From Streptomyces sp. NBC_00091 (GTDB lineage Bacteria > Actinomycetota > Actinomycetes > Streptomycetales > Streptomycetaceae), in the NCBI RefSeq assembly GCF_026343185.1, contig NZ_JAPEMA010000001.1:4526001-4590000 (forward strand): DNA of 64,000 nucleotides, written 5' to 3'. Position 1 is the stretch's first letter; every line of letters begins with the position of its first letter. A program made the translations under genes and the position numbers. The notes beneath the pieces were generated by a model. It did no database searches. It was not told where the DNA came from and saw only the letters and a list, made by a program, of their open reading frames with translations. Positions 9,730 to 28,880 of the stretch are shown piece after piece.

Positions 9730-9803
9730 ACGTCCATCAAAGCGTGCGCCGCCGACAACGGCCGCTCAGGCGCGCACGGTGCCCGCCGCGCGCGCAAGCG
9801 CGC

Positions 9804-10433: not shown

Positions 10434-10497
10434 GCAGCGCAGTCTACGACCGGTCCCCGCGGCGTCCTTCCCTCTGCTGGCCATGACTGCTAGAAGT

Positions 10498-10511: not shown

Positions 10512-10531
10512 TAACTCCCTGGAGGCCTGAG

Positions 10532-14514: not shown

Positions 14515-15564
14515 TCATGTCCGCGCCCCGGGGCGTCTCCCGGAGCGCTCCGCCATCCTCGCACCGCCCTCTGACACACCGCTCGCCAATTCCGGTCGCA
14601 CCACCTCCGCCCGGCACGCCGACGGGCTGCCCCACGCGTCGCGCAGCGGGCGGGCCTTGCGCAGCCACAGCGACAGGTCCAGCTCCTCGGTGTAGCCGAC
14701 CGCGCCGTGCAGCTGGAGGGCGGTGAGCGCGGCCGCGTACGCCGCCTCGCCGGCGGTCAGCTTCGCCGCCGCCACGTCCCGGCGCGACAGGGACAGCGCC
14801 GCCGCCCACACCAGCGGCCGGGCGAACTCCAGCGCCAGCAGGGTGTCCGCCAGCCGGTGCTTGACCGCCTGGAAACCGCCGATCGGCGTCCCGAACTGGG
14901 TGCGCTGCTTCGCGTACTCCACCGTCCGCGCCAGCAGAGCCTCGCCGACGCCCAGGCACTGGGCCGCCGTCAGCAGCCGCGCCCAGCGCAGGGCCGCCCG
15001 CCCCGCCGCCGTCACCGCCGGGCCCGAGGCGAGCAGTTCCCCGCCCGGGGCCGGCGGGTACAGCCGCCGGGCCGGGTCCGTGGACGCCAGCAGCTCCCCG
15101 TGCCCGCCGGCCAGCCGCAGTTCGCCCGCCTGCGACACCGTGAAGCGGTACGTCGCCGCGTCCGCGTCCAGGGCGTACGGGGACCCGCCCGGCAGCGTCA
15201 GCGTCGCCGTGGCCCCACCCGCGGCCAGCCCCGGCAGGAAGCGCTTCGCCAGCACCTCGTCGCCCAGCTCGGCGAAGAGCACCGACGCCGCCGCCGTCTC
15301 CACCACCGGGCCCGGGACACCCGCCCGCCCCAGCTCCACGAAGCCCAGGGCCAGCTCCACCGGCAGCGGGCCCAGGCCGTCGTACGCCTCCGGCGCGGCC
15401 AGCGCGAACAGCCCCGTCCCGGCGAGCCGGGACCACAGCGCCCGCCCCGGCCCGTGCTCCCCGGCCGCCCAGGCCCGTACCGTCGCCGGGACCTCCGCCG
15501 CGCCGAGCAGGGAGCGCAGCGTACGGGCGAAGTCCGACTGTTCCTCGGTCAGCAGGAAGCGCAT
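14515..15564 (-). CDS. Acyl-CoA dehydrogenase, smaller partner subunit (FadE32/FadE33-like)
   Basis: Acyl-CoA dehydrogenase homologue of 349 residues. The N-terminal helical domain begins MRFLLTEEQSDFARTLR; the C-terminal domain contains RTQFGTPIGGFQAVKHRLAD and LQLHGAVGYTEELDLSLWLR. The middle beta domain is short and weakly conserved. That is typical of the smaller chain in alpha2beta2 steroid-type dehydrogenases, where the FAD sites are shared with the partner. Its ATG overlaps the fadE31 stop (ATGA), so the two are co-translated. In Mycobacterium tuberculosis fadE31, fadE32 and fadE33 are adjacent in the same order. Confidence 0.85.
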   Translation of the reverse strand: MRFLLTEEQSDFARTLRSLLGAAEVPATVRAWAAGEHGPGRALWSRLAGTGLFALAAPEAYDGLGPLPVELALGFVELGRAGVPGPVVETAAASVLFAELGDEVLAKRFLPGLAAGGATATLTLPGGSPYALDADAATYRFTVSQAGELRLAGGHGELLASTDPARRLYPPAPGGELLASGPAVTAAGRAALRWARLLTAAQCLGVGEALLARTVEYAKQRTQFGTPIGGFQAVKHRLADTLLALEFARPLVWAAALSLSRRDVAAAKLTAGEAAYAAALTALQLHGAVGYTEELDLSLWLRKARPLRDAWGSPSACRAEVVRPELASGVSEGGARMAERSGRRPGART

Positions 15565-16709
15565 CAGCGGCGGCCCTTCGGAAGGCCGAGCAGCCGCTCG
15601 GCGATGATGTCGCGCTGGATCTCGTTCGTGCCCGCGTAGATCGGCCCGGCCAGCGAGAAGATCCACGGCTCGGCCCACACGCCCTGCGCCAGTTCCGCGT
15701 CGGCGCCCAGCAGGTCCAGGGCCGTCTCGTGCAGGGCGATGTCGTACTGCGACCAGAACACCTTGTTCAGGCTGGACTCGGCGCCGATGCTCCCGCCCGC
15801 CGCGAAACGGGAGGCGCCCGCCCAGGTGAACAGCTCGTAGGCGCGGGCCCCGACCACCGCGTCCGCCACCCGGTCGCGCAGCGCCGTGTCCGCCGGGTCT
15901 CCCTGAGCCCGCCAGAGCGACACGAGCCGGTCGGCCGCCGCCAGGAACCGGCCGGGGGAGCGCAGGGTCAGCCCCCGCTCGTTGCCGGTGGTGGACATCG
16001 CGATCCGCCAGCCCTGCCCCGGCTCCCCGATCACGTCCTCGTCGGGGACGAACACCCGGTCCAGGAACAGCTCCGCGAAGGCCGGCTTGCCGTCGAGGCG
16101 GCCGATGGGCCGTACCGTCACCCCCGGGGCCCGCAGGTCGAACATCAGGTACGTCAGCCCCTGGTGCGGCTTCGGCGCCCCGGGATCGGTGCGGAAGATG
16201 CCGAAGGCCCGGTCGGCGAAGGCGGCCCGCGAGGACCAGGTCTTCTGCCCCGACAGCAGCCAGCCGCCCTCCGTCCGCACGGCCCGCGACGTCAGCGAGG
16301 CCAGGTCGGAGCCCGACTCCGGCTCCGACCAGGCCTGCGCCCAGACCACCTCGCCGCTCGCCATGGAGGGCAGCACCCGCGCCCGCTGCTCCGCCGTGGC
16401 GTGGTCGAAGAGGGTCGGGGCCAGCAGGCTGATGCCGTTCTGCGAGACCCGGCCGGGCGCGCCCGCCGCCCAGTACTCCTCCTCGAAGACCAGCCACCGC
16501 TCGATGTCCACGCCCCGGCCCCCGTACTCCTCGGGCCAGGACACCGCCGACCAGCGGTCCGCGTGCAGCAGCGCCTCCCACTCCCGGTGCGCCGCGAAAC
16601 CCTCCCCGGTCTCCAGCGAGGGCAGGGGGACGGCCGGGACGTGCGCGCGGAGCCAGTCCCGGGCCTCGGCCCGGAAGGCCTCCACCTCGGGTGCGTGGTC
16701 GAGGTTCAC
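15564..16709 (-). CDS. fadE31: Acyl-CoA dehydrogenase, larger subunit (FadE31-like)
   Basis: Acyl-CoA dehydrogenase of 381 residues, close in length and sequence to mycobacterial FadE31 as I remember it: WPEEYGGRGVDIERWLVFEE, then GAPGRVSQNGISLLAPTLF, AQAWSEPESGSDLASL, and the end IYAGTNEIQRDIIAERLLG, which binds FAD. It should dehydrogenate a CoA ester in steroid C/D-ring breakdown together with the smaller subunit downstream. The GTG start at 16709 follows GGAGG at a long 10-base spacing. The start overlaps the stop of a possible 17-codon leader ORF. It is the first enzyme gene leftward from the KstR2-type operator. Confidence 0.9.
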   Translation of the reverse strand: MNLDHAPEVEAFRAEARDWLRAHVPAVPLPSLETGEGFAAHREWEALLHADRWSAVSWPEEYGGRGVDIERWLVFEEEYWAAGAPGRVSQNGISLLAPTLFDHATAEQRARVLPSMASGEVVWAQAWSEPESGSDLASLTSRAVRTEGGWLLSGQKTWSSRAAFADRAFGIFRTDPGAPKPHQGLTYLMFDLRAPGVTVRPIGRLDGKPAFAELFLDRVFVPDEDVIGEPGQGWRIAMSTTGNERGLTLRSPGRFLAAADRLVSLWRAQGDPADTALRDRVADAVVGARAYELFTWAGASRFAAGGSIGAESSLNKVFWSQYDIALHETALDLLGADAELAQGVWAEPWIFSLAGPIYAGTNEIQRDIIAERLLGLPKGRR

Positions 16710-16759
16710 CTGCTGTTCGCCTCCTTCATGGCGGCACCCTTCACGGCGGCTACGTCCAT
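16706..16759 (-). other. Possible 17-codon leader ORF upstream of fadE31
   Basis: An ATG at 16759 opens MDVAAVKGAAMKEANSR and stops in a GTGA overlap with the fadE31 start. The GGAGG used by fadE31 lies inside it. It might be translated and coupled to fadE31, or it may be chance. It has no ribosome site of note. Confidence 0.25.
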
Positions 16760-16788
16760 GCCGCCGAGCGGGTCCGCCGGCCTTCCCT

Positions 16789-16802
16789 AACAAGTGTTTG
16801 GT
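16789..16802. promoter_or_regulatory. KstR2-type operator 1 (fadE31 / ipdF divergon)
   Basis: AACAAGTGTTTGGT fits the published KstR2 consensus AnCAAGnnCTTGnT at all but one fixed position. It lies between the divergent fadE31 and ipdF transcription units, directly before the TAGGTT-like -10 of the rightward one. The second copy at 26196-26209 differs by one base. Confidence 0.75.
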
Positions 16803-16818
16803 AGGTTAACGTACGGCC

Positions 16819-16860
16819 ATGACCAGCGTCGAGGAGTTCCGCACCGAGGCCCGGGCATGA
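16819..16860 (+). pseudogene. fadE30: Remnant of fadE30 (first codons fused to stop), now a leader ORF
   Basis: The 13-codon ORF MTSVEEFRTEARA ends in TGA, which overlaps the ipdF start as ATGA. The peptide matches the N-terminus of FadE30-type acyl-CoA dehydrogenases (mycobacterial FadE30 begins MQDVEEFRAQVRG as I remember). fadE30 is the gene immediately upstream of the ipdF homologue in Mycobacterium tuberculosis. An in-frame internal deletion that kept the start, the first 12 codons or so and the coupled stop explains it. The ORF may still couple translation to ipdF. Confidence 0.6.
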
Positions 16861-17639
16861 CCGCGCCCGCGTACGTCCCCGCCCACGGGCTGCTCCGGGG
16901 CCGCACCGCCGTCATCACCGCCGCCGCCGGAGCCGGCATCGGCGGGGCCACCGCCCGCCGCTTCCTGGAGGAGGGCGCCGCCGTCCTGATCAGCGACGCC
17001 CACGCCCGCCGGCTCAAGGAGACCGAGGACGCCCTCGCCGCCGAGTTCGGCGCCGGCAAGGTCGCCTCCCTGCCCTGCGACGTCACCTCCGAGGAACAGG
17101 TCCAGGCCCTCTTCGCGCACGCCGAGCGGCTGCACGGCGGCCTCGACGTCGTCGTCAACAACGCCGGCCTCGGCGGCACCGCCGCCCTCGTCGACATGAC
17201 CGACGAGCAGTGGGGCCGGGTCCTCGACGTCACCCTGAACGGCACCTTCCGCTGCACCCGCGCCGCGCTGCGCTCCCTGAAGGCCGCCGGCCGCGGCGGA
17301 GTCGTCGTCAACAACGCCTCCGTCATCGGCTGGCGCGCCCAGACCGGCCAGGCCCACTACGCCGCCGCCAAGGCCGGGGTGATGGCACTGACCCGCTGCG
17401 CGGCACTGGAGGCCGCCGGGTTCGGCGTACGGATCAACGCGGTCGCCCCGAGCCTGGCCATGCATCCGCACCTGGTGAAGGTCACCAGCGAGGAGCTGCT
17501 GAGCGAGCTGACGGCCCGCGAGGCCTTCGGCCGGTACGCCGAGCCGTGGGAGATCGCCAACGTCATCGTCTTCCTGGCCAGCGGCTACTCCTCGTACATG
17601 ACCGGCGAGACCGTCTCGGTCAGCAGCCAGCACGCGTAG
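16857..17639 (+). CDS. ipdF: SDR dehydrogenase of steroid C/D-ring degradation (IpdF-like)
   Basis: Short-chain dehydrogenase of 260 residues, closely similar to Rv3559c (IpdF). It shares TAAAGAGIGGATARR at the NAD site, VNNAGLGG, NNASVIGWRAQ and then YAAAKAGVMALTRC. The end YSSYMTGETVSVSSQH is also shared. IpdF oxidises a hydroxyacyl-CoA derivative of the steroid C/D-ring acid HIP in mycobacteria. The ATG overlaps the stop of the fadE30 remnant. It heads the order ipdF-kstR2-fadA6, with only 15 and 18 bases between genes, so one transcript from the operator at 16789 is likely. Confidence 0.9.
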   Translation: MTAPAYVPAHGLLRGRTAVITAAAGAGIGGATARRFLEEGAAVLISDAHARRLKETEDALAAEFGAGKVASLPCDVTSEEQVQALFAHAERLHGGLDVVVNNAGLGGTAALVDMTDEQWGRVLDVTLNGTFRCTRAALRSLKAAGRGGVVVNNASVIGWRAQTGQAHYAAAKAGVMALTRCAALEAAGFGVRINAVAPSLAMHPHLVKVTSEELLSELTAREAFGRYAEPWEIANVIVFLASGYSSYMTGETVSVSSQHA

Positions 17640-17654
17640 GCCGAGAATGGGCGC

Positions 17655-18266
17655 GTGCCAACGAACAAGAAGCCGCAGGTGACACCCTCACCGGAGCGCC
17701 GCCGGGAACTCCTCGGCACCGCCGCCGAGGTCTTCGCCGCCCAGGGCTACAACGCCACCACCGTCCGCAAGATCGCCGACGCCGCCGGGATGCTCGCCGG
17801 CAGCCTCTACTACCACTTCGATTCCAAGGAATCGATGCTCGACGAGATCCTCTCGGCCTTCCTGAACGAGCTGTGGGCGGGGTACGACACCGTCCTCGCC
17901 GCCGGCCTCGGCCCCAGGGAGACCATCGAGGCCCTCGTCACCGAGTCCTTCCGGGAGATCGACCGGCACCGCGCCGCCGTCGCCATCTACCAGAAGGAAG
18001 CCCGCACGCTCTCCGCGCAGCCCCGCTTCCACTACCTCTCCGACTCGCAGCAGAAGTTCGAGAAGGCGTGGCTCGGGACGCTGGAGCGGGGGGTCGCCGC
18101 CCAGGTCTTCCGCGCCGACCTCGACATCCGCCTGACCTACCGCTTCGTCCGCGACACGGTGTGGGTCGCGGCGTCCTGGTACCGGCCGGGCGGCCAGCAC
18201 AGCCCCGAGGAGATCGCCCGCCAGTACCTGTCGATGGTGCTGGACGGGATCGCCGTACGCCCCTGA
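17655..18266 (+). CDS. kstR2: TetR-family repressor KstR2
   Basis: TetR-type regulator of 203 residues (GTG start). The helix-turn-helix runs from about residue 20 to 62 (TTVRKIADAAGMLAGSLYYHF). The ligand domain shares distinctive stretches with mycobacterial KstR2: VAIYQKEARTLSAQPRFHYL, YRFVRDTVWV and SWYRPGG, then YLSMVLDGI. KstR2 represses C/D-ring genes and is relieved by HIP-CoA. Here it sits inside one of the two operons that carry its likely operator, so it should be autoregulated. Confidence is high for the family and good for orthology. Confidence 0.92.
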   Translation: MPTNKKPQVTPSPERRRELLGTAAEVFAAQGYNATTVRKIADAAGMLAGSLYYHFDSKESMLDEILSAFLNELWAGYDTVLAAGLGPRETIEALVTESFREIDRHRAAVAIYQKEARTLSAQPRFHYLSDSQQKFEKAWLGTLERGVAAQVFRADLDIRLTYRFVRDTVWVAASWYRPGGQHSPEEIARQYLSMVLDGIAVRP

Positions 18267-18284
18267 CCCGTTGAGGAGCCCGCA

Positions 18285-19442
18285 ATGCCCGAGGCCTACA
18301 TAGTCGACGCCGTACGCACCCCCGTGGGACGCAGGGGCGGCGGCCTGTCCGCCGTGCACCCCGCCGACCTGGGCGCCCACGTACTGAAGGCACTGGTCGA
18401 GCGCTCCGGGGTGGACCCGGCCGCGGTGGAGGACGTGGTGTTCGGCTGCCTCGACACGGTCGGGCCGCAGGCCGGCGACATCGCCCGCACGGCGTGGCTG
18501 GCGGCGGGCCTGCCGGAGGAGGTGCCGGGGGTGACGGTGGACCGGCAGTGCGGCTCCTCGCAGCAGGCCGTGCACTTCGCGGCGCAGGGGGTCCTGTCCG
18601 GAACCCAGGACCTGGTGGTCGCGGGCGGCACCCAGAACATGTCGATGATCCCGATCGCCTTCGCCTCCCGGCAGGCCGCGGAGCCGCTGGGCTTCACCGA
18701 GGGCCCCTACGCGGGATCGGCCGGCTGGCGGGCGCGGTACGGGGACGCTCCGGTGAACCAGTTCCACGGGGCGCAGCTCATCGCGCGGAAGTGGGAGATC
18801 TCGCGGCGGGACATGGAGGAGTTCGCCCTGCGCTCCCACCAGCGGGCGATCCGCGCGATCGACGAGGGCCGCTTCGCCCGGGAGACCGTCGCCTACGGGG
18901 AGGTCCGGGTGGACGAGGGGCCGCGCCGGGACACCACCCTGGAGAAGATGGCCGGGCTCAAGCCGGTGGTCGAGGGCGGCACCATCACGGCGGCCGTCTC
19001 CTCCCAGGTCTCGGACGGCGCGGCGGCCATGCTGATCGCCTCCGAGCGGGCGGTCGCCGAGCACGGCCTCACGCCCCGGGCCCGCATCCACCACCTGTCG
19101 GTGCGCGGCGAGGACCCCATCCGCATGCTGTCGGCCCCGATCCCGGCGACGGCGTACGCCCTGAAGAAGACCGGCCTCACCCTGGACGACATCGACCTGG
19201 TCGAGATCAACGAGGCCTTCGCCCCGGTGGTCCTGGCCTGGCTGAAGGAGACGGGCGCCGACCCCGACCGGGTCAACGTCAACGGCGGCGCCATCGCCCT
19301 GGGGCACCCGCTGGGGGCGACGGGCGTGAAGCTGATGACCACCCTGCTGCACGAGCTGGAGCGCACGGGAGGTCGCTACGGCCTCCAGACCATGTGCGAG
19401 GGCGGCGGACAGGCCAACGTGACGATCATCGAGCGGCTGTAG
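18285..19442 (+). CDS. fadA6: Acetyl-CoA acyltransferase (thiolase) FadA6
   Basis: Thiolase of 385 residues, the length of FadA6. The catalytic Cys89 is in VDRQCGSSQQA, followed by GGTQNMS; the NEAF motif and GHPLGATG supply the active-site Asn and His, and CEGGGQ near the end supplies the second Cys. Long identical-looking blocks with mycobacterial FadA6 include EKMAGLKPLVEGG-type and NVNGGAIALGHPLGATG. It cleaves a 3-oxoacyl-CoA late in C/D-ring degradation. It follows kstR2 by 18 bases with GAGGAG as ribosome site and ends the operon. Confidence 0.93.
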   Translation: MPEAYIVDAVRTPVGRRGGGLSAVHPADLGAHVLKALVERSGVDPAAVEDVVFGCLDTVGPQAGDIARTAWLAAGLPEEVPGVTVDRQCGSSQQAVHFAAQGVLSGTQDLVVAGGTQNMSMIPIAFASRQAAEPLGFTEGPYAGSAGWRARYGDAPVNQFHGAQLIARKWEISRRDMEEFALRSHQRAIRAIDEGRFARETVAYGEVRVDEGPRRDTTLEKMAGLKPVVEGGTITAAVSSQVSDGAAAMLIASERAVAEHGLTPRARIHHLSVRGEDPIRMLSAPIPATAYALKKTGLTLDDIDLVEINEAFAPVVLAWLKETGADPDRVNVNGGAIALGHPLGATGVKLMTTLLHELERTGGRYGLQTMCEGGGQANVTIIERL

Positions 19443-19554
19443 CGACGACGGCGGCAGGGGCCGTGGAGGAGTGGTGACCCAGGTCGCAGCACCACCCGCC
19501 CGAGGTGTGCTAGCTTTGGGGGCGTTGCAGTTGTGGTACCCATGAACTTTATGT

Positions 19555-19591
19555 GCGCCTACGGACTTCCGCAGGCGCTTTTATTGTTTTT
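19555..19591 (+). promoter_or_regulatory. Intrinsic-terminator-like hairpin in the csp leader
   Basis: GCGCCT-a-CGG-actt-CCG-c-AGGCGC folds into a stem with one internal A/C mismatch and a 4-base loop. It is followed directly by TTTTATTGTTTTT. This is the only T-rich intrinsic terminator I find in the window, and it lies inside the 5' leader, 48 bases before the cold-shock start. Read-through would have to be controlled, or a short leader RNA is made. TAGCTT at 19511-19516 is a possible -10. Confidence 0.6.
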
Positions 19592-19639
19592 CCCGGAATC
19601 TCCCGGATGGGGCCCTTGCCGCCTATTCAGGAGATTCAA

Positions 19640-19843
19640 ATGGCTAACGGTACCGTGAAGTGGTTCAACTCGGAAAAGGGCTTCGGCTTCATCGAGCAGG
19701 ACGGTGGCGGCCCGGACGTCTTCGCCCACTACTCGAACATCGCCACCCAGGGCTTCCGTGAGCTCACCGAGGGTCAGCGCGTGACCTTCGACGTCACCCA
19801 GGGCCAGAAGGGCCCCCAGGCGGAGAACATCCTCCCCGCCTAA
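19640..19843 (+). CDS. Cold-shock protein (CspA family)
   Basis: Single cold-shock domain of 67 residues that binds single-stranded RNA and DNA. RNP1 is KGFGFIEQ (residues about 16-23) and RNP2 is [17 protein letters not shown] at the start and [10 protein letters not shown] at the end are as expected. AGGAG lies seven bases before the ATG. The leader is about 120 bases and AT-richer than its surroundings, as in other cold-shock genes, and contains the terminator-like hairpin. A clean terminator follows the gene. Confidence 0.95.
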
Positions 19844-19855
19844 GTTCTTCAGCAT

Positions 19856-19889
19856 GCCGGGGTCCGCACCGTGAGGTGCGGGCCCCGGC
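19856..19889 (+). terminator. Terminator of the cold-shock gene
   Basis: A 15-bp stem with one G-U pair (19856-19870 with 19875-19889) and loop GTGA, starting 12 bases after the stop and followed by a moderately T-rich stretch. Confidence 0.85.
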
Positions 19890-19918
19890 TTGTCTGCTGT
19901 CTCGACCTTTGTTGCACC

Positions 19919-19952
19919 TGCCGGTTTCAGGAGGGTGCCGGTTTCAGGAGGG
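19919..19952 (+). repeat. 17-bp tandem duplication carrying the ribosome site
   Basis: TGCCGGTTTCAGGAGGG occurs twice in direct contact, 19919-19935 and 19936-19952. Each copy carries an AGGAGG Shine-Dalgarno sequence; the second lies nine bases before the helicase ATG. Confidence 0.9.
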
Positions 19953-19961
19953 CTTTCTCGC

Positions 19962-21638
19962 ATGACCAGCTCCAGCTCCGCACGACCCAGCCGCCGCCCC
20001 ACCCGGGGTCGAGGTGCGGCCCAGGGGCGTCCGAAGGCTGGCGCGGGACGGCAGAAGTCCGCCCCCGCCCCCCGGCCGCAGGAATTCACCATGCCCGAAC
20101 CGCTGACCCCGGCCCTCCCGCCGGTGGCCGCGTTCGAGGACATGGACATGCCCGAGGCGCTGCTGAAGACCCTCGCAGCCCAGGGCGTGACCGAGCCCTT
20201 CCCGATCCAGGCCGCCACCCTGCCGAACTCGCTCGCCGGCCGTGACCTGCTCGGCCGCGGCCGCACCGGCTCCGGCAAGACGCTGGCCTTCGGCCTGGCG
20301 CTGCTGGCCCGTACCGCCGGCCGCCGCGCCCAGCCGAAGCAGCCGCTCGCGCTGGTCCTCGTACCGACCCGCGAGCTGGCGCAGCAGGTCACCGACGCCC
20401 TGGCCCCGTACGCCACGTCCGTCAACCTGCGCATCGCGACCGTCGTCGGCGGCATGTCGATCAACCGGCAGTCCGGCGCCCTGCGCCGCGGCGCCGAGGT
20501 GCTCGTCGCCACCCCCGGCCGCCTGAAGGACCTCATCGACCGCGGTGACGCCGACCTCTCGCAGGTCTCGGTCACCGTCCTCGACGAGGCCGACCAGATG
20601 ACCGACATGGGCTTCATGCCGCAGGTCACCGCCCTGCTCAAGCAGGTCCAGTCCGGCGGCCAGACCATGCTGTTCTCGGCGACCCTCGACAAGAACATCG
20701 ACAAGCTCGTCAAGATGTTCCTCACCGACCCCGTCGCCTTCTCCGTCGACCCGTCCGCCGGTGCGGTCAGCACGATGGAGCACCACGTCCTGTACGTCAT
20801 GGACGAGACCGACAAGAAGGCCGTGGCCACGCGTATAGCCGCTCGCGACGGCCGGGTGATCATGTTCGTGGACACCAAGCGCGGGGTCGACCGCATGGTC
20901 AAGAAGCTCCTCGCGGACGGTGTGCGCGCCTCCGGCCTGCACGGCGGGCGCTCCCAGCCGCAGCGCAACCGGACCCTGGACTGGTTCAAGACCGGTGAGG
21001 TCACCGCGCTGGTCGCCACCAACGTGGCCGCGCGCGGCATCCACATCGACGACCTCGACCTGGTCGTCAACGTGGACCCGCCGACCGACCACAAGGACTA
21101 CCTGCACCGCGGCGGCCGTACCGCCCGCGCCGGCGAGTCCGGCAGCGTGGTCACCCTGGTCCTGCCCGACCAGAAGCGGGACATGACCCGGCTGATGTCG
21201 GACGCCGGGATCACCCCGCGCACGGCGCAGATCAAGTCCTCCGACGAGGAACTGGCCCGGATCACCGGCGCCCGGGTGCCCTCCGGCATCCCGGTCGTGC
21301 TGGAGGTGCCGCAGGCCGCCCCGCCGAAGCCGCGCAACGGCTCCGGCTCGGGCTCGGGCTCCTCGCGCCGTCGCTCCGGCGGCCCGCGCGGCGGCTCCGC
21401 CACGGGCGGCGCCCCGGCGGCGGGCGGCCGCGGCCGTCGCTCCGGCGGCTCCGCGTCCGGTCAGGCCCCCGCCTCCGCGTCGGGCCAGGCCCGTCGCGGT
21501 CAGGGTGGCGGCCAGGGCACCGGCGGTGCCCCCGCCCAGGCCCGCCGCAGCGGTGGCTCCGCCTCCGGTGGCGCGGCCGCGGCCTCCGCGCGCAGCCGCG
21601 TCGGGACGGGCGGCCAGGGCCGCCGCCGGGCGGTCTGA
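19962..21638 (+). CDS. DEAD-box ATP-dependent RNA helicase
   Basis: RNA helicase of 558 residues (cytoplasmic). Both RecA-like domains are present: Q motif, Walker A variant GRGRTGSGKT, PTRELA, ATPGRL, DEAD box as DEADQMTDMGF, SAT, then LHGGRSQPQRNR, VATNVAARGI and HRGGRTARAG. The first 65 residues are basic and low in complexity, and the last 110 are a Gly-Ser-Arg-rich tail of the RNA-binding type. The ATG was chosen because a strong ribosome site lies nine bases upstream. Its position after a cold-shock gene fits a role in RNA unwinding at low temperature. Confidence 0.95.
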   Translation: MTSSSSARPSRRPTRGRGAAQGRPKAGAGRQKSAPAPRPQEFTMPEPLTPALPPVAAFEDMDMPEALLKTLAAQGVTEPFPIQAATLPNSLAGRDLLGRGRTGSGKTLAFGLALLARTAGRRAQPKQPLALVLVPTRELAQQVTDALAPYATSVNLRIATVVGGMSINRQSGALRRGAEVLVATPGRLKDLIDRGDADLSQVSVTVLDEADQMTDMGFMPQVTALLKQVQSGGQTMLFSATLDKNIDKLVKMFLTDPVAFSVDPSAGAVSTMEHHVLYVMDETDKKAVATRIAARDGRVIMFVDTKRGVDRMVKKLLADGVRASGLHGGRSQPQRNRTLDWFKTGEVTALVATNVAARGIHIDDLDLVVNVDPPTDHKDYLHRGGRTARAGESGSVVTLVLPDQKRDMTRLMSDAGITPRTAQIKSSDEELARITGARVPSGIPVVLEVPQAAPPKPRNGSGSGSGSSRRRSGGPRGGSATGGAPAAGGRGRRSGGSASGQAPASASGQARRGQGGGQGTGGAPAQARRSGGSASGGAAAASARSRVGTGGQGRRRAV

Positions 21639-21668
21639 CCCCTCGCACAGCACGGATCCCGCAGCACC

Positions 21669-21709
21669 GGAACGCCGGGTGGCACGCATCGCGCGCCGCC
21701 CGGCGTTCC
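21669..21709. terminator. Bidirectional terminator between helicase and phosphatase
   Basis: A 15-bp stem with one wobble (21669-21683 with 21695-21709) and an 11-base loop lies between convergent genes. Three GTTCCG-type short repeats follow it. Confidence 0.8.
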
Positions 21710-21736
21710 GCCGTTCCGCCGTTCCGGGCCCGGCGG

Positions 21737-22696
21737 CTACCGGACCAGCTTGTTCTGGAGCTTCGCCAGCGTCCGCAGGTCCAGGCCGAGACCGTCCGTC
21801 AGATAGCCGTAGAAGCTCCCGTAGTCGGCCTCCAGCTGCGCGGTCGCCGCGTCCAGGTAGTCCTGGCGGACCTCCTGGAGCGGGATCAGCAGGTCCGGGT
21901 TCTGCATCCGCCCCGACTGCTTGAGGCCCGCGCGCACCTGGGCGTCGTACGCCGCCCGGAAGGTGTTGGAGGCCAGGTAGTCGCTCTCGGCCGTCTCCTG
22001 CGGCACGGCCAGCGAACGCAGCAGGACGTAACTCATCCAGCCCGTCCGGTCCTTGCCGGAGGTGCAGTGGTACAGCAGCGGACCCTGGTTCCCGTCCGCG
22101 ATCTCCCGCAGGGTGGCCGCGAACTGCGCCCGGTTCTCGGGGCTGGTCACGAAGGTGCGGTAGATGTCCCGCATGTAGGCCTCGGCGCGGCCGCCGCCCA
22201 GCATCTGCTCCTGCTTCACGGGATCGCCGGTGGCTATCGCGCCGACCAGCGTGCCGTACAGGCCCAGGTCGCTGATCGGGCGGGCGGTGGGGGTGAGCCC
22301 CTGCGGCAGCCGGTCGGCGCCGTCGTACTGGAGCTCCATGGGGATGCGGAAGTCGACGACCTTCGTGAGGCCGAGACCCGAGACGGTGGTGATGTCCGCC
22401 TGGGTCAGCTTGCTCAGCGCGTCGGAGCGGTACACCAGCCCCTGGCGGACCCGGCCGCCCGTGTAGGTGGAGTAGCCGCCGAGGTCCCGGAGGTTGACGG
22501 CGGCCTGGAGGGGGATCTGACGGATCGTTTCCGCTGCGGGGTACCGGTCGTGCGGCTGCCGGTGCTGGCGGGCCTGTCCGGCGGATGCGGCGCTGCCGGC
22601 CGGCGCCGCGTACGCGGAAACGGCGGGCAGGGTCCCGATGGCGAGGACGGCGGCGGCCGCCGCGGTCGCCAGGCGGATTCGGGCACGGCTCATCAT
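21737..22696 (-). CDS. Secreted tyrosine-specific protein phosphatase family protein
   Basis: Exported phosphatase of 319 residues. A signal peptide follows the ATG (RIRLATAAAAAVLAIGTL, cleavage near SAYAAPAG). The body matches the Y_phosphatase3 family: NLRDLGGYSTYTGGRVR at the start of the domain and the P-loop HCTSGKDRTGW with nucleophile Cys211 and Arg217. In relatives these enzymes remove phosphate from phosphotyrosine or phosphoinositides. AGGAG precedes the start. It lies between the two halves of the KstR2-type cluster without obvious link to them. Confidence 0.9.
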   Translation of the reverse strand: MMSRARIRLATAAAAAVLAIGTLPAVSAYAAPAGSAASAGQARQHRQPHDRYPAAETIRQIPLQAAVNLRDLGGYSTYTGGRVRQGLVYRSDALSKLTQADITTVSGLGLTKVVDFRIPMELQYDGADRLPQGLTPTARPISDLGLYGTLVGAIATGDPVKQEQMLGGGRAEAYMRDIYRTFVTSPENRAQFAATLREIADGNQGPLLYHCTSGKDRTGWMSYVLLRSLAVPQETAESDYLASNTFRAAYDAQVRAGLKQSGRMQNPDLLIPLQEVRQDYLDAATAQLEADYGSFYGYLTDGLGLDLRTLAKLQNKLVR

Positions 22697-22722
22697 GCGA
22701 CTCCTGAAACGGAGAAGGGGGA

Positions 22723-23790
22723 TCACCCTGGTGGTGGCAGGGTGCGGAGCGAGTGCAGTGCTTCCAGTGCCTGTTGTGCTTCGGCCATGACGCGCGAGAC
22801 GAGTTCCGCACAGGACGGCAGATCCTCGATCACCCCCGCGACCTGGCCCGATGCCATGACACCGAGGTCCGTACGGCCCTCGACCATGGACGCCTTCAGG
22901 AGCATCGGGGTGTTCGCGGCGAGCAGGACCTGGCTCCAGGACAGGTCCTTGCCGTGCTTCATCGCCAGGCCGTCGCGCACCATCCCCGCCCAGCTCAGGC
23001 CCGACAGCTTCCGGAAGCCCGCCGCGTGCCGGACCGCCCTGGCCAGCGCCCCGGCACGGCCCGACCGCTCCAGCGCCGCGACCAGCTCGGTGCGCAGCAT
23101 CCGGTGCGGCAGCCCGTCGACGGCCGTGGTGACGGTGACGTCCTTGACGCCGGCCTTCAGGTACTCGGCCTTGACCGCGTCGGGGACGGTGGAGTCGGAG
23201 GTCAGCAGGAAGCGGGTGCCCATGGCGATGCCCGCGGCCCCGTAGGCCAGGGCCGCGACCAGGCCGCGGCCGTCGTGGAAGCCGCCCGCTGCGATCACCG
23301 GGATGTCCACCGCGTCGACCACCTGGGGCAGCAGCACGGTCGTGGCCACGTCCCCGGTGTGCCCGCCGCCCTCCCCACCCTGCACGATCACCGCGTCCGC
23401 GCCCCAGGCCGCCACCTTCTCGGCGTGCCGGCGCGCCCCGATCGAGGGGATCACCACCACCCCGGCGTCCTTGAGCCGGGCGATCAGCTCCCGGGACGGG
23501 GCGAGGGCGAAGGAGGCCACCCGTACGCCCTCGTCGATGATCAGCCGTACGCGCTCGGCCGCGTCCCCGGCGTCCGCCCGCAGGTTGACCCCGAACGGCG
23601 CGTCCGTACGGGACCTTACCTCCCGGACCGCCGCGCGCAGCTGCTCCGTGGTCATCGTCGCCGAGGCCAGGATCCCCAGCGCCCCCGCCCCGGCCGCCGC
23701 CGAGACCAGCCGCGGGCCCGCCACCCAGCCCATGCCCGTCTGCACGATCGGGTACCGGACCCCGACCAGCTTGGTGAACGCCGTCTCCAT
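22723..23790 (-). CDS. ipdC: Flavin-dependent oxidoreductase IpdC (2-nitropropane dioxygenase fold)
   Basis: FMN-dependent TIM-barrel enzyme of the nitronate monooxygenase superfamily. The chosen ATG (GGGAGA before it) gives 355 residues, exactly the mycobacterial IpdC length as I remember. Phosphate-binding and active-site stretches are visible: GVRYPIVQTGMGWVAGPRLV, VIVQGGEGGGHTGD, and VIAAGGFHDGRGL with MGTRFLLTSDS. IpdC acts as a reductase or oxidase on a steroid C/D-ring CoA ester. It is last in the operon echA20-ipdA-ipdB-ipdC, 31 bases after ipdB. Confidence 0.92.
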   Translation of the reverse strand: METAFTKLVGVRYPIVQTGMGWVAGPRLVSAAAGAGALGILASATMTTEQLRAAVREVRSRTDAPFGVNLRADAGDAAERVRLIIDEGVRVASFALAPSRELIARLKDAGVVVIPSIGARRHAEKVAAWGADAVIVQGGEGGGHTGDVATTVLLPQVVDAVDIPVIAAGGFHDGRGLVAALAYGAAGIAMGTRFLLTSDSTVPDAVKAEYLKAGVKDVTVTTAVDGLPHRMLRTELVAALERSGRAGALARAVRHAAGFRKLSGLSWAGMVRDGLAMKHGKDLSWSQVLLAANTPMLLKASMVEGRTDLGVMASGQVAGVIEDLPSCAELVSRVMAEAQQALEALHSLRTLPPPG

Positions 23791-23821
23791 CACCGTCTCC
23801 CTCGCTGCCGTCCCCACCGGG

Positions 23822-24556
23822 TCAGACCCGTACTTCCCGGTCGCGCAGGCCCTTGGGGTCGATCACCTCGCGGATCAGCCGCAGCTCCTCGGCGGCCGGC
23901 TCGCGGGTGTACGCGACCTCGTCCGCGACCGCCAGCTCGAAGCCGGTGGCCGCGCGGACCTCTTCGACCGTGACGCCCGGGTGGAGGGAAGCCAGGCGCA
24001 TCGAGCGGTCCGGGCCCGCGAAGTCGAAGACCCCGAGATCGCTGACCACCCGGGGCAGCCGGTGGAAGCGCGTCACCCCGGCCGCCTCCGCGCGGTCGTA
24101 GCCCACCCCGCTGACCATGTCGACGCGCTCGACGAACACCCGGGGGGAGTGCTTCGGCACCCAGTAGCTCACCGGGTTGTTCAGGGTGTTGACGGGCGCG
24201 CCGCGCACCCCGAGGAGCTGGCGGGAGGGCCGCTCCCAGTCGCCGATGCAGGAGATGTTCTGGTTGCCGAACCGGTCGAGCTGGCTGGCGCCCATCATCA
24301 CGTGCCGCCGGCCGCCCGTGACCATCGTCAGATGGCGGCGGTAGGGGAGCCAGCCCTCGGCCGTGCCGTCGAGGCCGACCAGCATGGCCTCGCCGTCGGT
24401 GAGCAGCAGGTCGGGGGAGAAGGTCCGCTTGGCGAGCCGGGCGCCGAAGGAGGGGATCAGGCCCATCGGGCTGGCGAGCACCTCGCCGTTGTCGCGCCAG
24501 GCCTCGGCGCAGGCGATCACGCAGTATTCCTGTCGGGTGGCGGTCGCGGTGGTCAC
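23822..24556 (-). CDS. ipdB: COCHEA-CoA hydrolase, beta subunit (IpdB)
   Basis: Beta chain (244 residues) of the class I CoA-transferase-fold hydrolase IpdAB, which opens the last steroid ring (ring C) in Mycobacterium and Rhodococcus. Landmarks are SPMGLIPSFGARLAKRTFSP and VMMGASQLDRFGNQNIS, then VNNPVSYW-type NTLNNPVSYWVPKHS and FVERVDMVSG. The conserved catalytic Glu of true CoA-transferases (SENG) is not seen, as expected for IpdB. The GTG start overlaps the ipdA stop as GTGA. Confidence rests on gene order as well as sequence. Confidence 0.93.
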   Translation of the reverse strand: MTTATATRQEYCVIACAEAWRDNGEVLASPMGLIPSFGARLAKRTFSPDLLLTDGEAMLVGLDGTAEGWLPYRRHLTMVTGGRRHVMMGASQLDRFGNQNISCIGDWERPSRQLLGVRGAPVNTLNNPVSYWVPKHSPRVFVERVDMVSGVGYDRAEAAGVTRFHRLPRVVSDLGVFDFAGPDRSMRLASLHPGVTVEEVRAATGFELAVADEVAYTREPAAEELRLIREVIDPKGLRDREVRV

Positions 24557-25404
24557 TGTTGCTCCTCGTGCCAGGTCCGGACGGCGGTCTGGTAGTCGTG
24601 CTCGTTCCCGCCGGCCAGGAAGCGGGCGGCGAACTCGGGCCAGGGGGTGGACGCGTAGAGCTTCTGGAAGGCCTCGTCGCGGTCGTAGTCGGGCGCGCAG
24701 GAGGTGAAGTGCGCGCCGTTCGGGGTCTCCACGACCCCGGTGACGGAGTGCCGGCTGACGAGGAGGGACTGCGGGGGGCCGGACTTCGCCAGCTCGGCGC
24801 TCTCCACGAGCTGCTCGCAGGAGACGTACGCGGCGTCGGCGGCCTCGCAGAAGAGGTCGTCGAAGTACGGGTCCGGGCCCAGGTACTGGGCGTTGCCGAG
24901 ACGGTCGGCGCGGTTGAGGTGGACCAGGGCCGCGTCCATCCGCAGGGCGGGGACGGCGACGAACTCCTCGCCGTCGGCGTAGGGGGAGGTGACGGTGCGC
25001 AGCTCCGGGTTGACCCGCATCACGTCGGAGCCGAGCCCGGCCCGGACGGGCATGAAGGGGAGCCGGTTCGCGGCGGCGTGCAGGCCCCACATGAACATGG
25101 CCTCGTCGTACTCGGTCAGGGTGAAGGCGCCGCTCTCGCGGGCGGCCCGGAAGTTCGGCTCCAGCGCGATGGAGTCGAGGGTCGCGAAGGGGGCCACCAG
25201 TCTGCGGATCCGCCCGGCCGCGGCCAGCAGCCCGACGTCCGGGCCGCCGTACGAGATCACGGTGAGATCCGTGACCGGGGAGCGCAGCAGCGCCCGCACC
25301 AGCGCCATCGGCTTGCGCCGGGAACCCCAGCCGCCGATGCCGAGGGTCATGCCGCTGCGCAGCTGCCCGACCACCTCTTCGGGGGTCATGCTCTTGTCCG
25401 TCAT
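24553..25404 (-). CDS. ipdA: COCHEA-CoA hydrolase, alpha subunit (IpdA)
   Basis: Alpha chain (283 residues) of IpdAB. The opening LRSGMTLGIGGWGSRRKPMA and the following LVRALLRSPVTDLTVISYGG are near-identical in pattern to mycobacterial IpdA, as are LPFMPVRAGLGSD, GNAQYLGPDPYFDDLF and GAHFTSCAPDYDRDE. The glycine-rich GIGGWGS segment forms the CoA-binding loop. Start and stop overlap echA20 and ipdB by ATGA and GTGA, so the subunits are made in equal amounts. Confidence 0.94.
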   Translation of the reverse strand: MTDKSMTPEEVVGQLRSGMTLGIGGWGSRRKPMALVRALLRSPVTDLTVISYGGPDVGLLAAAGRIRRLVAPFATLDSIALEPNFRAARESGAFTLTEYDEAMFMWGLHAAANRLPFMPVRAGLGSDVMRVNPELRTVTSPYADGEEFVAVPALRMDAALVHLNRADRLGNAQYLGPDPYFDDLFCEAADAAYVSCEQLVESAELAKSGPPQSLLVSRHSVTGVVETPNGAHFTSCAPDYDRDEAFQKLYASTPWPEFAARFLAGGNEHDYQTAVRTWHEEQQ

Positions 25405-26174
25405 ACGGTGTCTCCCTGTCCCTTCTCGGAGGTGCGGCCCTTCCCGAAGGTGTCGCGGACCCGGTCGGCGACACCGCTGAGGTTGGCCTCGAAGGTGAAG
25501 CCCTGCTCGAAGCGGTAGCTGCGGCGGACGTCCACGGGGTCGATGCCGTTGATGGCGGCCTTGGCCAGGCGGATCAGGTGGCCGTCCTTCTTCGCGATCT
25601 CGGCCGCCAGTTCCAGGGCGGCGCCGCGCAGCTCGGCGGGCGGGACCACCTTCCAGACGGAGCCGTGCGCGTGCAGTTCGGCGGCGGTGGCGGTGCGCGA
25701 GGTGTAGTAGAGGGCGCGCATCAGGTGCTGCGGGACGAGCCGGGCCAGGTGGGTGGCGGCGCCGAGGGCGCCCCGGTCGAGTTCGGGCAGGCCGAAGACG
25801 GCGTCGTCGCTCGCCACGATCGCGTCGGCGTTGCCGACGAGGCCGATGCCGCCGCCCAGGCAGAAGCCGTTCACGGCGGCGATCACCGGCACCTCGCACT
25901 CGTACACGGCGGCGAAGGCCTCGTAGCAACCGCGGTTGGCGCCGATGAGGGCGCCGTGCCCGGTGTCGCGCTGCATCTCCTTGATGTCGACCCCGGCGTT
26001 GAAGCCGCGGCCCTCGGCGGCCAGGACCACACAGCGGACCCCGGGGTCGCGGCCGGCCGCGCGCAGGGCGTCGGCGAGGTCGTACCAGCCCTGCACGGGA
26101 AGGGCGTTGACGGGCGGGTAGTCGGCTGTGACGAGTGCGATGCCCTTGTCCGGGCCGGAGGTGGAGACACCCAT
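25401..26174 (-). CDS. echA20: Ring D hydrolase EchA20 (crotonase family)
   Basis: Crotonase-fold enzyme of 257 residues. EchA20 hydrolyses ring D of the CoA ester HIEC-CoA in steroid degradation. Shared blocks with Rv3550 are AEGRGFNAGVDIKEMQR, the oxyanion-hole region AVNGFCLGGGIGLVGN, LDRGALGAATHLARLVPQHLM-type and YRFEQGFTFEANLSGVAD. I chose the ATG at 26174; an earlier in-frame ATG lies inside the KstR2-type operator. It is the first gene of the leftward operon and has only a weak ribosome site. Confidence 0.94.
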   Translation of the reverse strand: MGVSTSGPDKGIALVTADYPPVNALPVQGWYDLADALRAAGRDPGVRCVVLAAEGRGFNAGVDIKEMQRDTGHGALIGANRGCYEAFAAVYECEVPVIAAVNGFCLGGGIGLVGNADAIVASDDAVFGLPELDRGALGAATHLARLVPQHLMRALYYTSRTATAAELHAHGSVWKVVPPAELRGAALELAAEIAKKDGHLIRLAKAAINGIDPVDVRRSYRFEQGFTFEANLSGVADRVRDTFGKGRTSEKGQGDTV

Positions 26175-26195
26175 GAGCGGATCAGCTACCTTTCC

Positions 26196-26209
26196 ACCAA
26201 ACATTTGTT
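26196..26209. promoter_or_regulatory. KstR2-type operator 2 (echA20 / SDR divergon)
   Basis: The minus-strand sequence AACAAATGTTTGGT differs at one base from operator 1. It lies between divergent echA20 and SDR genes, 21 bases from each of the nearest start codons, so a bound repressor would block both. Confidence 0.75.
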
Positions 26210-26230
26210 AGGTGAGGAAGGTAGCAGCCG

Positions 26231-26995
26231 ATGGAGCTCAAGGGGAGGGTTGCCGTCGTCACCGGCGGAACCCGGGGCGTGGGCGCCGGGATCGCGCGCG
26301 CGTTCCTCGCGGCGGGGGCCGAGGTGGTGGTCTGCGCCCGCCGGCCGCCGGGGGGGCCGGTGGCTGCGGAGGGCCGCCGCGCCGCCTTCACCGCCGTGGA
26401 CCTGCGCGATCCGGCCGCCGTCCAGCGGTTCTTCGGGGCGGTCGCGGACCGGTACGGGCGGCTCGACTGCCTGGTGAACAACGCGGGCGGGACCCCGTAC
26501 CGGCTGCTGGGGGAGGGCGGGGCCGAGCGGCACGCGCGGGTCCTCGAGCTCAACCTGGTGGCGCCGATGACGGCCTCGCTGGCCGCGTACCCGTGGCTGC
26601 GCGAGAGCCGGGGCTCGGTCGTGATGATCGGCAGCGTCAGCGGGACCCGGCCCTCCCCGGGGACGGCGGCCTACGGGGCGGCCAAGGCGGGCCTGGAGAA
26701 CCTGGCCCGCTCGATGGCCGTGGAGTGGGCGCCCGAGGTACGGGTCAACTCGCTGGTCCTCGGCATGGTGCGGACCGAGCTGGCGCACCTGCACTACGGG
26801 GACGAGGCGGGCATCGCGGCGGTCGGCGCCACCGTCCCGCTGGGCCGGCTGGCCGAGCCCTCGGACGTGGGGGAGGCGGCGGTGTTCCTCGCCTCGGACC
26901 GGGCGGGATATGTGAGCGGCGCGAGCCTGCTGGTGCACGGCGGCGGGGAGCGGCCGGCGTTTCTGGATGCGGCAACGGTCAACAAGGAGAGCTGA
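26231..26995 (+). CDS. SDR oxidoreductase of the KstR2 cluster (Rv3549c-like)
   Basis: Short-chain dehydrogenase of 254 residues. The NAD(P) site TGGTRGVGAGIAR is near residue 11; NNAGG, the Ser of IGSVSG and YGAAK complete the active site. It starts 21 bases after the operator, with AAGGTAG upstream. In Mycobacterium tuberculosis the divergent neighbour of echA20 is Rv3549c, an SDR of similar length, so orthology is likely on position and sequence. It probably oxidises or reduces a hydroxy-CoA ester during C/D-ring or side-product metabolism; the exact step is not established. The next SDR starts two bases after its stop. Confidence 0.9.
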   Translation: MELKGRVAVVTGGTRGVGAGIARAFLAAGAEVVVCARRPPGGPVAAEGRRAAFTAVDLRDPAAVQRFFGAVADRYGRLDCLVNNAGGTPYRLLGEGGAERHARVLELNLVAPMTASLAAYPWLRESRGSVVMIGSVSGTRPSPGTAAYGAAKAGLENLARSMAVEWAPEVRVNSLVLGMVRTELAHLHYGDEAGIAAVGATVPLGRLAEPSDVGEAAVFLASDRAGYVSGASLLVHGGGERPAFLDAATVNKES

Positions 26996-26996
26996 G

Positions 26997-27908
26997 ATGG
27001 GTATTGCGGACGGACGCGTGGTGATCGTGACGGGCGCGGGGCGGGGGCTGGGCCGGGCCCACGCGCTGGCCTTCGCGGCGGAGGGGGCGCGGGTGGTCGT
27101 CAACGACCTCGGGGTGGGCCTCGACGGGCTGCCGGGGCCCGACAGCCCGGCCGCGCAGGTCGTGGAGGAGATCCGGACGCTGGGTGGGGAGGCCGTGGCG
27201 CACGGCGGGGACATCGCGACCGACGAGGGCGCGGCCTCCCTGGTGGACCGCGCGGTCGTCGCCTTCGGCCGCCTGGACACCCTGGTCAACAACGCCGGCT
27301 TCCTGCGGGACCGGATGCTGGTCAACCTCGGCGAGGACGACTGGGACGCGGTGATGCGGGTCCACCTCAAGGGGCACTTCCTGCCGCTGAAGCACGCCGC
27401 CGCCTGGTGGCGGGCCGAGGCGAAGGCCGGGCGGCGGCCGGCCGCGCGGGTGGTCAACACCTCCTCGGGTGCGGGGCTGCTGGGCTCCGTCGGCCAGGGC
27501 AACTACAGCGCGGCCAAGGCGGGCATCCTCGGCCTGACCCTGGTGGCGGCGGCCGAGATGGGCCGGTACGGGGTCCAGGTCAACGCCATCGCCCCGGCGG
27601 CCCGGACCCGGATGACGCAGGAGGCCTTCGCCGGGACGATGGCGGCCCCGGCCGAGGGGGCCTTCGACGCGATGGCCCCGGAGAACGTGTCCCCGCTGGT
27701 GGTGTGGCTGGGCTCGGACGCCTCGGCCGGGGTCACGGGCCGGGTGTTCGAGGCCGAGGGCGGGCGCATCACGGTGATGGAGGGCTGGCGCCCGGGCCCC
27801 ACCACGGACCGCGGCGCCCGCTGGTCCCCGGCGGAGGCGGGCGAGGCCGCGGCGAAACTCCTGTCCGAGTCGCAGCCGCCGCAGCCGGTGTACGGCGCGA
27901 AGCCCTAG
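26997..27908 (+). CDS. SDR oxidoreductase of the KstR2 cluster (Rv3548c-like)
   Basis: Long short-chain dehydrogenase of 303 residues, the type related to the dehydrogenase domain of multifunctional beta-oxidation enzymes. TGAGRGLGRAHALAFA binds the cofactor and VVNDLGVGLDG follows, which is characteristic of this group. NNAGFLRDRM, SSGAGLLGS and YSAAKAGILGL carry catalysis. AAGGAG precedes the ATG. It matches Rv3548c (304 residues) in length, type and position. It is translationally linked to the preceding SDR and ends the operon; from 27909 to 28159 I see no gene. Confidence 0.9.
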   Translation: MGIADGRVVIVTGAGRGLGRAHALAFAAEGARVVVNDLGVGLDGLPGPDSPAAQVVEEIRTLGGEAVAHGGDIATDEGAASLVDRAVVAFGRLDTLVNNAGFLRDRMLVNLGEDDWDAVMRVHLKGHFLPLKHAAAWWRAEAKAGRRPAARVVNTSSGAGLLGSVGQGNYSAAKAGILGLTLVAAAEMGRYGVQVNAIAPAARTRMTQEAFAGTMAAPAEGAFDAMAPENVSPLVVWLGSDASAGVTGRVFEAEGGRITVMEGWRPGPTTDRGARWSPAEAGEAAAKLLSESQPPQPVYGAKP

Positions 27909-28813: not shown

Positions 28814-28880
28814 CACGGACGCGCGAGCGCCGGCTGTGCCGATCCGAACAAGCCCGACCCGACGGCCAGGAGTGACAACG

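Follow-up and report, generated by a model that had tools for sequence, protein, structure and literature searches.

The closest described relatives of the locus analysed here are the KstR2 regulons of Mycobacterium and Rhodococcus. As set out in the portions of two studies on which we draw (PMC3068626, PMC5380842), they include echA20-ipdA-ipdB-ipdC facing two short-chain dehydrogenase/reductase (SDR) genes, ipdF-kstR2-fadA6, and fadE31-fadE32, with the 14-bp KstR2 motif AnCAAGnnCTTGnT in the corresponding mycobacterial and rhodococcal intergenic regions (PMC3068626). A 64-kb stretch of Streptomyces DNA (referred to here as the window) contains eleven orthologues of these genes in the same local orders (positions 14515–27908; Table 1), with putative KstR2 sites at corresponding places and at similar distances from the genes. 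It differs from the described regulons in having no local fadD3, fadE30 or fadE33 and no genes for steroid rings A and B, and in having two sites instead of three, with half-sites one and two changes removed from the published motif. We propose, with a probability of roughly 0.55, that the window genes represent what is left of a steroid pathway, its C/D-ring half, and use HIP-type acids released by other degraders.

A genome survey of steroid degraders, in the part of it used here, required enzymes for rings A and B, KshA and HsaC among them, and scored 55 of 57 Streptomyces as lacking the pathway (PMC4810484); a module restricted to rings C and D would be invisible under that criterion. In a literature search no study of a C/D-only Streptomyces module stood out, although this does not prove that there is none. 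What is new here is the absence of fadD3, fadE30 and fadE33 alongside that of the ring A/B genes. Judged by its core and its putative sites the module belongs to the KstR2 regulon, but within the window it is neither a complete regulon nor a complete steroid pathway.

Orthology, organization and putative operators

The eleven genes are open and full-length, and are arranged as two divergons separated by a DEAD-box helicase gene and a tyrosine-phosphatase-like gene (about 20094–22726). In one, fadE32-fadE31 face ipdF-kstR2-fadA6, and in the other ipdC-ipdB-ipdA-echA20 face the two SDR genes. A first-pass annotation of this DNA had described ten KstR2-regulon genes in two divergons forming a C/D-ring module; the arrangement is upheld by orthology and gene order and every gene named is present, open and orthologous, but the count is eleven.

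The closest solved relatives of IpdA in a PDB search are 6co6, 6coj and 6con (E 6e-96), with the next family, glutaconate CoA-transferase, at E 3e-26, and the same three entries are closest to IpdB (E 5e-89 versus 1e-16 for the next family). They are named only as 'CoA-transferase' subunits in the PDB table and we take them to be the IpdAB enzymes of Rhodococcus and Mycobacterium. The KstR2 protein matches 2ibd ('possible transcriptional regulator') at E 2e-65 and two entries named KstR2 at E 8e-57, and it conserves the residues aligned to R162 and W166 of Mycobacterium tuberculosis KstR2, which presumably have a role in HIP-CoA binding. Four NCBIfam equivalog models, generic in name, are matched above their cut-offs, by IpdF (449 bits, cut-off 336), FadA6 (712, cut-off 591), EchA20 (417, cut-off 260) and the first SDR (374, cut-off 255). 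IpdA, IpdB and EchA20, for which closer kinship with unrelated families would have refuted the earlier annotation, all lie nearest to the steroid clade.

The HIP cluster of Nocardia farcinica (L001, L094) contains orthologues of all eleven genes at 51–70% identity; unlike the window, it has a complete front end, with fadE30 facing fadD3-echA-fadE31-fadE32-fadE33. A match of the FadE32 protein to the IpdE2 model (126 of 450 bits) prompted the alternative that the acyl-CoA dehydrogenase pair is IpdE1-IpdE2, which we take to be FadE30-FadE33. This was rejected by comparison with the Nocardia proteins, in agreement with the original fadE31/fadE32 call: the FadE31 protein is 64% identical to Nocardia FadE31 versus 38% to FadE30, and the FadE32 protein 51% identical to FadE32 versus 33–34% to FadE33. 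The Nocardia genes themselves lack annotation and were named through gene order after the regulon table of PMC5380842, where FadE32 is listed as a MOODA-CoA dehydrogenase. On these sequence comparisons, the eleven window genes are orthologues of KstR2-regulon genes.

Each divergent intergenic region contains a putative KstR2 site, the case for which rests on place, spacing and conservation. The two have the pattern CTAACAA(G/A)TGTTTGG in common, which with up to two mismatches is present in the 64 kb only at the two divergon promoters (0.03 expected); because the pattern was drawn from both sites, this uniqueness shows just that further sites are absent. At echA20/sdr1, 79 of 80 relatives (L021 was not scored) match the site at 13–15 of its 15 positions, and at ipdF/fadE31 64 of 66 match at 14–15 of 15, the loci of L020 and L060 ending too soon. 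Across 99 kb of Streptomyces lavendulae CCM 3239, a search at up to three mismatches recovers these two sites and, other than their own reverse readings, nothing else. The echA20 gene probably starts at 26174 instead of the longer open reading frame start at 26204, since the latter is overlapped by the site. Five relatives (L039, L060, L062, L066 and L071) have no kstR2 match despite having fadA6 and ipdF; four keep both sites, and in L060 the single scorable site is kept, so they may serve a different regulator.

Table 1. Predicted features of the window. Percentages are identities; bit scores are given against model cut-offs.
Feature	Coordinates	Strand	Remarks
fadE32 orthologue, acyl-CoA dehydrogenase subunit	14515..15564	-	51% to Nocardia FadE32
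fadE31 orthologue, acyl-CoA dehydrogenase	15567..16706	-	64% to Nocardia FadE31
ipdF, 5-oxo/5-hydroxy HIC-CoA oxidoreductase	16857..17639	+	NF005880; 67% to Nocardia
kstR2, TetR repressor	17655..18266	+	Matches solved KstR2; 56% to Nocardia
fadA6, beta-ketoacyl-CoA thiolase	18285..19442	+	NF005865; 68% to Nocardia
ipdC, flavin-dependent 5-OH HIC-CoA reductase	22723..23817	-	67% to Nocardia gene adjoining ipdAB; nitronate-monooxygenase Pfam
ipdB, COCHEA-CoA hydrolase beta subunit	23822..24580	-	PDB matches; 57% to Nocardia
ipdA, COCHEA-CoA hydrolase alpha subunit	24577..25404	-	PDB matches; 58% to Nocardia
echA20, HIEC-CoA hydrolase, ring D opening	25401..26174	-	NF005925; 70% to Nocardia
SDR 1, Rv3549c type	26231..26995	+	NF005893; 59% to Nocardia
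SDR 2, Rv3548c type	26997..27908	+	69% to Nocardia; adh_short
Putative KstR2-type site 1, CTAACAAGTGTTTGG	16787..16801	+	fadE31/ipdF intergenic; 9 of 10 fixed positions of AnCAAGnnCTTGnT
Putative KstR2-type site 2, CTAACAAATGTTTGG	26197..26211	-	echA20/sdr1 intergenic; 8 of 10 fixed positions of AnCAAGnnCTTGnT
fadE30 fossil, first 12 codons (MTSVEEFRTEAR) joined to last codons and stop	16819..16860	+	Overlaps ipdF start by ATGA
IclR-type regulator fossil (label by eye), last 33 codons	29649..29747	-	Between the 7.6-kb and 6.5-kb ring A/B gap points
Gap point, 4.0 kb fadE33-fadD3-flavin reductase in S. lavendulae	9796..9797
Gap point, 1.1 kb LLM flavin monooxygenase in S. lavendulae	10520..10520
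PadR-type regulator (label by eye)	9804..10484	-	Shared with S. lavendulae fadE33-fadD3-flavin reductase and LLM cluster
Third SDR, common to the same S. lavendulae fadE33-fadD3 cluster	10532..11260	+	90% to S. lavendulae gene
Alpha/beta hydrolase, hormone-sensitive-lipase type, same S. lavendulae cluster	11257..12138 (start approximate)	+	LipP1 272 of 350 bits; 84% to S. lavendulae

Gaps and fossils at the locus

The window's first 56.5 kb, this being the part covered by the stretches compared (L012, L095, L096 and L103), align collinearly with S. lavendulae CCM 3239, with 82–95% DNA identity in the longer blocks and gaps in both directions. The S. lavendulae steroid cluster has the same module and sites and, unlike the window, adds kshA, kstD, hsaA-D, hsaE/F/G-like genes, fadD3, fadE30, fadE33, an enoyl-CoA hydratase gene and an LLM flavin monooxygenase gene. 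Besides the two gap points listed in Table 1, the window has gaps where S. lavendulae has 2.0 kb with the enoyl-CoA hydratase gene and fadE30, 7.6 kb with kshA and the hsaE/F/G-like genes, and 6.5 kb with hsaA, hsaD, hsaC, hsaB and kstD. The S. lavendulae proteins HsaA (604 bits, cut-off 450), HsaD (442, cut-off 400) and FadD3 (672, cut-off 657) exceed curated cut-offs; HsaC (369 of 450), HsaB (193 of 230) and KstD (629 of 788) fall below theirs though the matches are clear, and the KshA call rests on a Pfam C-terminal domain (308 bits).

When 16 S. lavendulae proteins were used as queries, no KshA, HsaA-D, HsaE/F/G, FadD3, flavin reductase or LLM monooxygenase was found in the window, which yielded matches only to the IclR fossil, its own FadE31, FadE32 and EchA20, and, for the KstD query, a short piece of gltD. 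KshA and HsaC, by which the survey of PMC4810484 recognizes a complete aerobic 9,10-seco steroid pathway, are thus without a window match, and collinearity and protein queries agree that fadD3, fadE30 and fadE33 are all absent within the window. The first-pass statement that ring A/B genes are missing from the window therefore stands, but its description of the module as nearly the whole set was too generous, with fadD3 (HIP activation) and fadE30 and fadE33 (first side-chain oxidation) locally gone. Set beside S. lavendulae, the module looks like the remnant of a longer local steroid cluster.

Two fossils record loss from the window (Table 1). An intact fadE30 occupies the position of the first in S. 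lavendulae, and the second is a truncated regulator gene; together they show that sequence was lost at the fadE30 gap and at the gaps beside the hsa genes. For fadD3 and fadE33 we infer loss from where these genes sit in the Nocardia cluster. In the genome G045 (C1:5697768-5698400) a fadE30 fragment with an internal stop, 90% identical to the S. lavendulae gene, represents a loss caught part-way.

The state of the fadE30 locus was scored in the window and the 80 most similar of at least 503 confirmed relatives; 15 stretches end short of fadE30, and among the 66 that could be scored the gene is present locally in 14 and absent in 52. On a tree of module proteins, unordered parsimony explains this pattern with seven changes; with no regain allowed, 18 losses are needed. 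The sisters of the window (L009 and L012; support 0.989) retain fadE30, and the breakpoints of its loss vary among lineages (L008, L015, L016, L018, L025 and L031). The GTCGAG of the fadE30 start lies within 48 nt of the site in 39 of the 52 loci lacking the gene, the window included (1.9% in shuffled sequence), although this fraction is not a number of events, the loci being kin to each other.

The genes flanking the first two gap points are shared with an S. lavendulae cluster (L095:6089-12842) in which fadE33-fadD3 stand together with genes for an HsaB-like flavin reductase, PadR-type regulator, LLM flavin monooxygenase, SDR and alpha/beta hydrolase; as a set these resemble a Baeyer-Villiger route. 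The PadR-type regulator has no NCBIfam match at E 1e-20. The LLM monooxygenase was rejected as part of a constant Baeyer-Villiger upper pathway, a close form (at least 82%) being present in only 17 of 199 genomes and not in the window. Two related secreted-protein genes at 28200–29564 adjoin gap points, and are in tandem in S. lavendulae also.

Distribution, paralogues and selection

We searched 199 genomes of the genus of S. lavendulae for IpdB (E at most 1e-40), HsaA (above its cut-off) and HsaC (at least 333 bits). IpdB is present in 137, whereas HsaA and HsaC are found in the same 18 genomes, all with IpdB, leaving 119 of the 137 carriers with neither. No genome reaches the HsaC cut-off of 450 bits, and the next group below the 18 scores at most 289 bits. 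KshA scores at least 288 bits in all 18; the Pfam cut-off for KshA_C is passed by 57 of the 199 genomes, of which only 19 reach 288 bits and the rest about 101 or less, and that count was not used. Fourteen sampled genomes have an IpdB at least 87% identical to that of the window, and nine of these have no HsaA (E 1e-100) or HsaC (E 1e-30) match genome-wide. The original suggestion that C/D-ring acids come from outside fits both the 119 carriers and the cited growth of a streptomycete on HIP (a 1977 study, as cited in PMC5380842), with the substrate itself inferred.

In the two relatives that were examined, FadD3-family, FadE30-like and FadE33/IpdE2-like genes are located far from the module, near lipid-transfer thiolases (L112–L114 and L119 in G141; L115–L118 in S. 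lavendulae), in a region that also contains an amidohydrolase-like gene and an SDR gene. The ligase scores 793 bits over a cut-off of 657 (G141), the FadE30-like protein is 59% identical to S. lavendulae FadE30, and the FadE33/IpdE2-like protein scores 209 of 450 bits. At 462 bits or more, the FadE30-like paralogue is present in 106 of the 137 genomes with IpdB versus 3 of the 62 without it, and in all nine of the HsaA/HsaC-free genomes among the 14 with the closest IpdB. Among IpdB carriers it is found in 95 of the 106 that lack a local fadE30 versus 11 of the 31 that have one (Fisher p 5e-9, disregarding shared ancestry), such that 126 of the 137 IpdB genomes have a FadE30-type gene, either locally or as the paralogue. 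This complementary pattern suggests, without proving, that a FadE30-type step remains necessary and now falls to the paralogue, which may have taken over the role of FadE30. A FadD3-family ligase exceeds the cut-off in 132 of the 199 genomes, with 122 IpdB carriers among the 125 matches listed, but the model is broad and the best matches are mostly to another paralogue, so these counts were rejected as a marker of local fadD3.

Selection on the module was gauged from ratios of nonsynonymous to synonymous substitution rates (dN/dS). In a clade in which every scored member is without fadE30 (78 pairs, from 13 of 14 tips), medians for the eleven genes run from 0.10 (fadA6) to 0.25 (fadE32), with individual pairs up to 0.62 (kstR2), and in a second fadE30-less group of five members they run from 0.07 to 0.36. 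Comparison of the window with 12 relatives gives medians of 0.08–0.37, and 0.32 for the neighbouring helicase; since the window's sisters retain fadE30 these values mix time before and after the loss, and the within-group comparisons replaced them as the post-loss test. By substitution pattern, the module core is under purifying selection, with no decay, in relatives that lack a local fadE30.

Proposed role and alternatives

Our best reading is of a genus-wide module for C/D-ring (HIP-type) acids. HIP or its relatives, made by other steroid degraders, would enter the cell and be converted to CoA thioesters by enzymes encoded elsewhere, probably the unlinked FadD3-, FadE30- and FadE33-like paralogues. 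A CoA thioester would release KstR2 from both putative sites; IpdF and IpdC would prepare the ring, EchA20 would hydrolyse ring D and IpdAB then ring C, with degradation completed through beta-oxidation by FadA6, FadE31/FadE32 and the SDRs. The retained enzymes IpdF, IpdC, EchA20, IpdAB, FadA6 and FadE31/32 span the pathway from about HIC-CoA on, according to the part of PMC5380842 used here, in which ipdC, echA20 and ipdAB mutants are also described as unable to grow when HIP is present and as containing little free CoA on incubation with cholesterol. Such phenotypes give a reason for a pathway of this kind to be lost from the top. A more far-reaching version, that most Streptomyces are C/D-ring acid scavengers following repeated independent loss of ring A/B and HIP-activation genes, with a KstR2-controlled core fed by unlinked FadD3/FadE30/FadE33-like enzymes, is tentative, and we consider it less likely than not.

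Several observations weigh against the proposal. The window and S. lavendulae differ by other gaps in both directions, including a 5.3-kb gap at 27.9 kb and one of about 4 kb at 7.5 kb, to which no pathway link was made, and stretches present only in the window, such as 2.6 kb at 36.7–39.3 kb; there is no fossil at the fadD3/fadE33 gap. Blind searches of the window with the published KstR2 motif were rejected as not discriminating (24 matches to the core at one mismatch, and 29 to the whole of AnCAAGnnCTTGnT at up to two, against 5.8 expected), and the unlinked paralogue region of S. lavendulae has no KstR2-type site at up to three mismatches. At the thresholds used, 11 of the 137 IpdB carriers have neither a local fadE30 nor the paralogue, and kinship among genomes goes uncounted in the Fisher tests. 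For the window strain, the evidence on paralogues and on ring A/B absence spans the 64-kb window; furthermore, one genome (G019:C1) has kshA adjoining the module and hsaA and hsaC 5.4 Mb away, showing that steroid genes can disperse. These last two points also favour a complete steroid pathway in the window strain, with the ring A/B genes, fadD3, fadE30 and fadE33 elsewhere in its genome. We regard that as quite unlikely given the nine of 14 genomes with closest IpdB that lack HsaA and HsaC, and the restriction of HsaA to 18 of the 199.

The module could instead serve a different bicyclic acid, for example a terpenoid or hopanoid breakdown product degraded by the same ring-opening chemistry, with its steroid ancestry being a matter of history. 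The absence of ring A/B genes from most sampled carriers speaks in its favour, as does the loss of the local HIP-specific front end (fadD3, fadE30 and fadE33), and the lipid-transfer thiolases, alcohol dehydrogenase and SDR of the paralogue region suggest other side-chain chemistry. However, the core enzymes remain near their steroid orthologues, KstR2 retains the equivalents of R162 and W166, and a FadE30-type gene nearly always accompanies IpdB, and we consider this explanation unlikely. A functionless and slowly decaying relic would account for the lost neighbouring pathway genes and the fossils in the window, the broken fadE30 of G045, and the shorter kstR2, ipdF or fadE32 reads in some relatives, some of them at contig ends. 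Against it stand the low dN/dS medians of the fadE30-less groups, the full-length frames of the window, the conservation of both sites and the presence of IpdB in more than two-thirds of the genomes, making it very improbable.

An intact-looking C/D-ring set without the upper genes suggests that many Streptomyces may use half-degraded steroids from other microbes. If the module works in this way, a large soil genus would join steroid turnover at its half-way stage, C/D-ring acids would be a shared currency among soil bacteria, and recurrent fadE30 loss would amount to a natural experiment on which steps of the pathway are replaceable.

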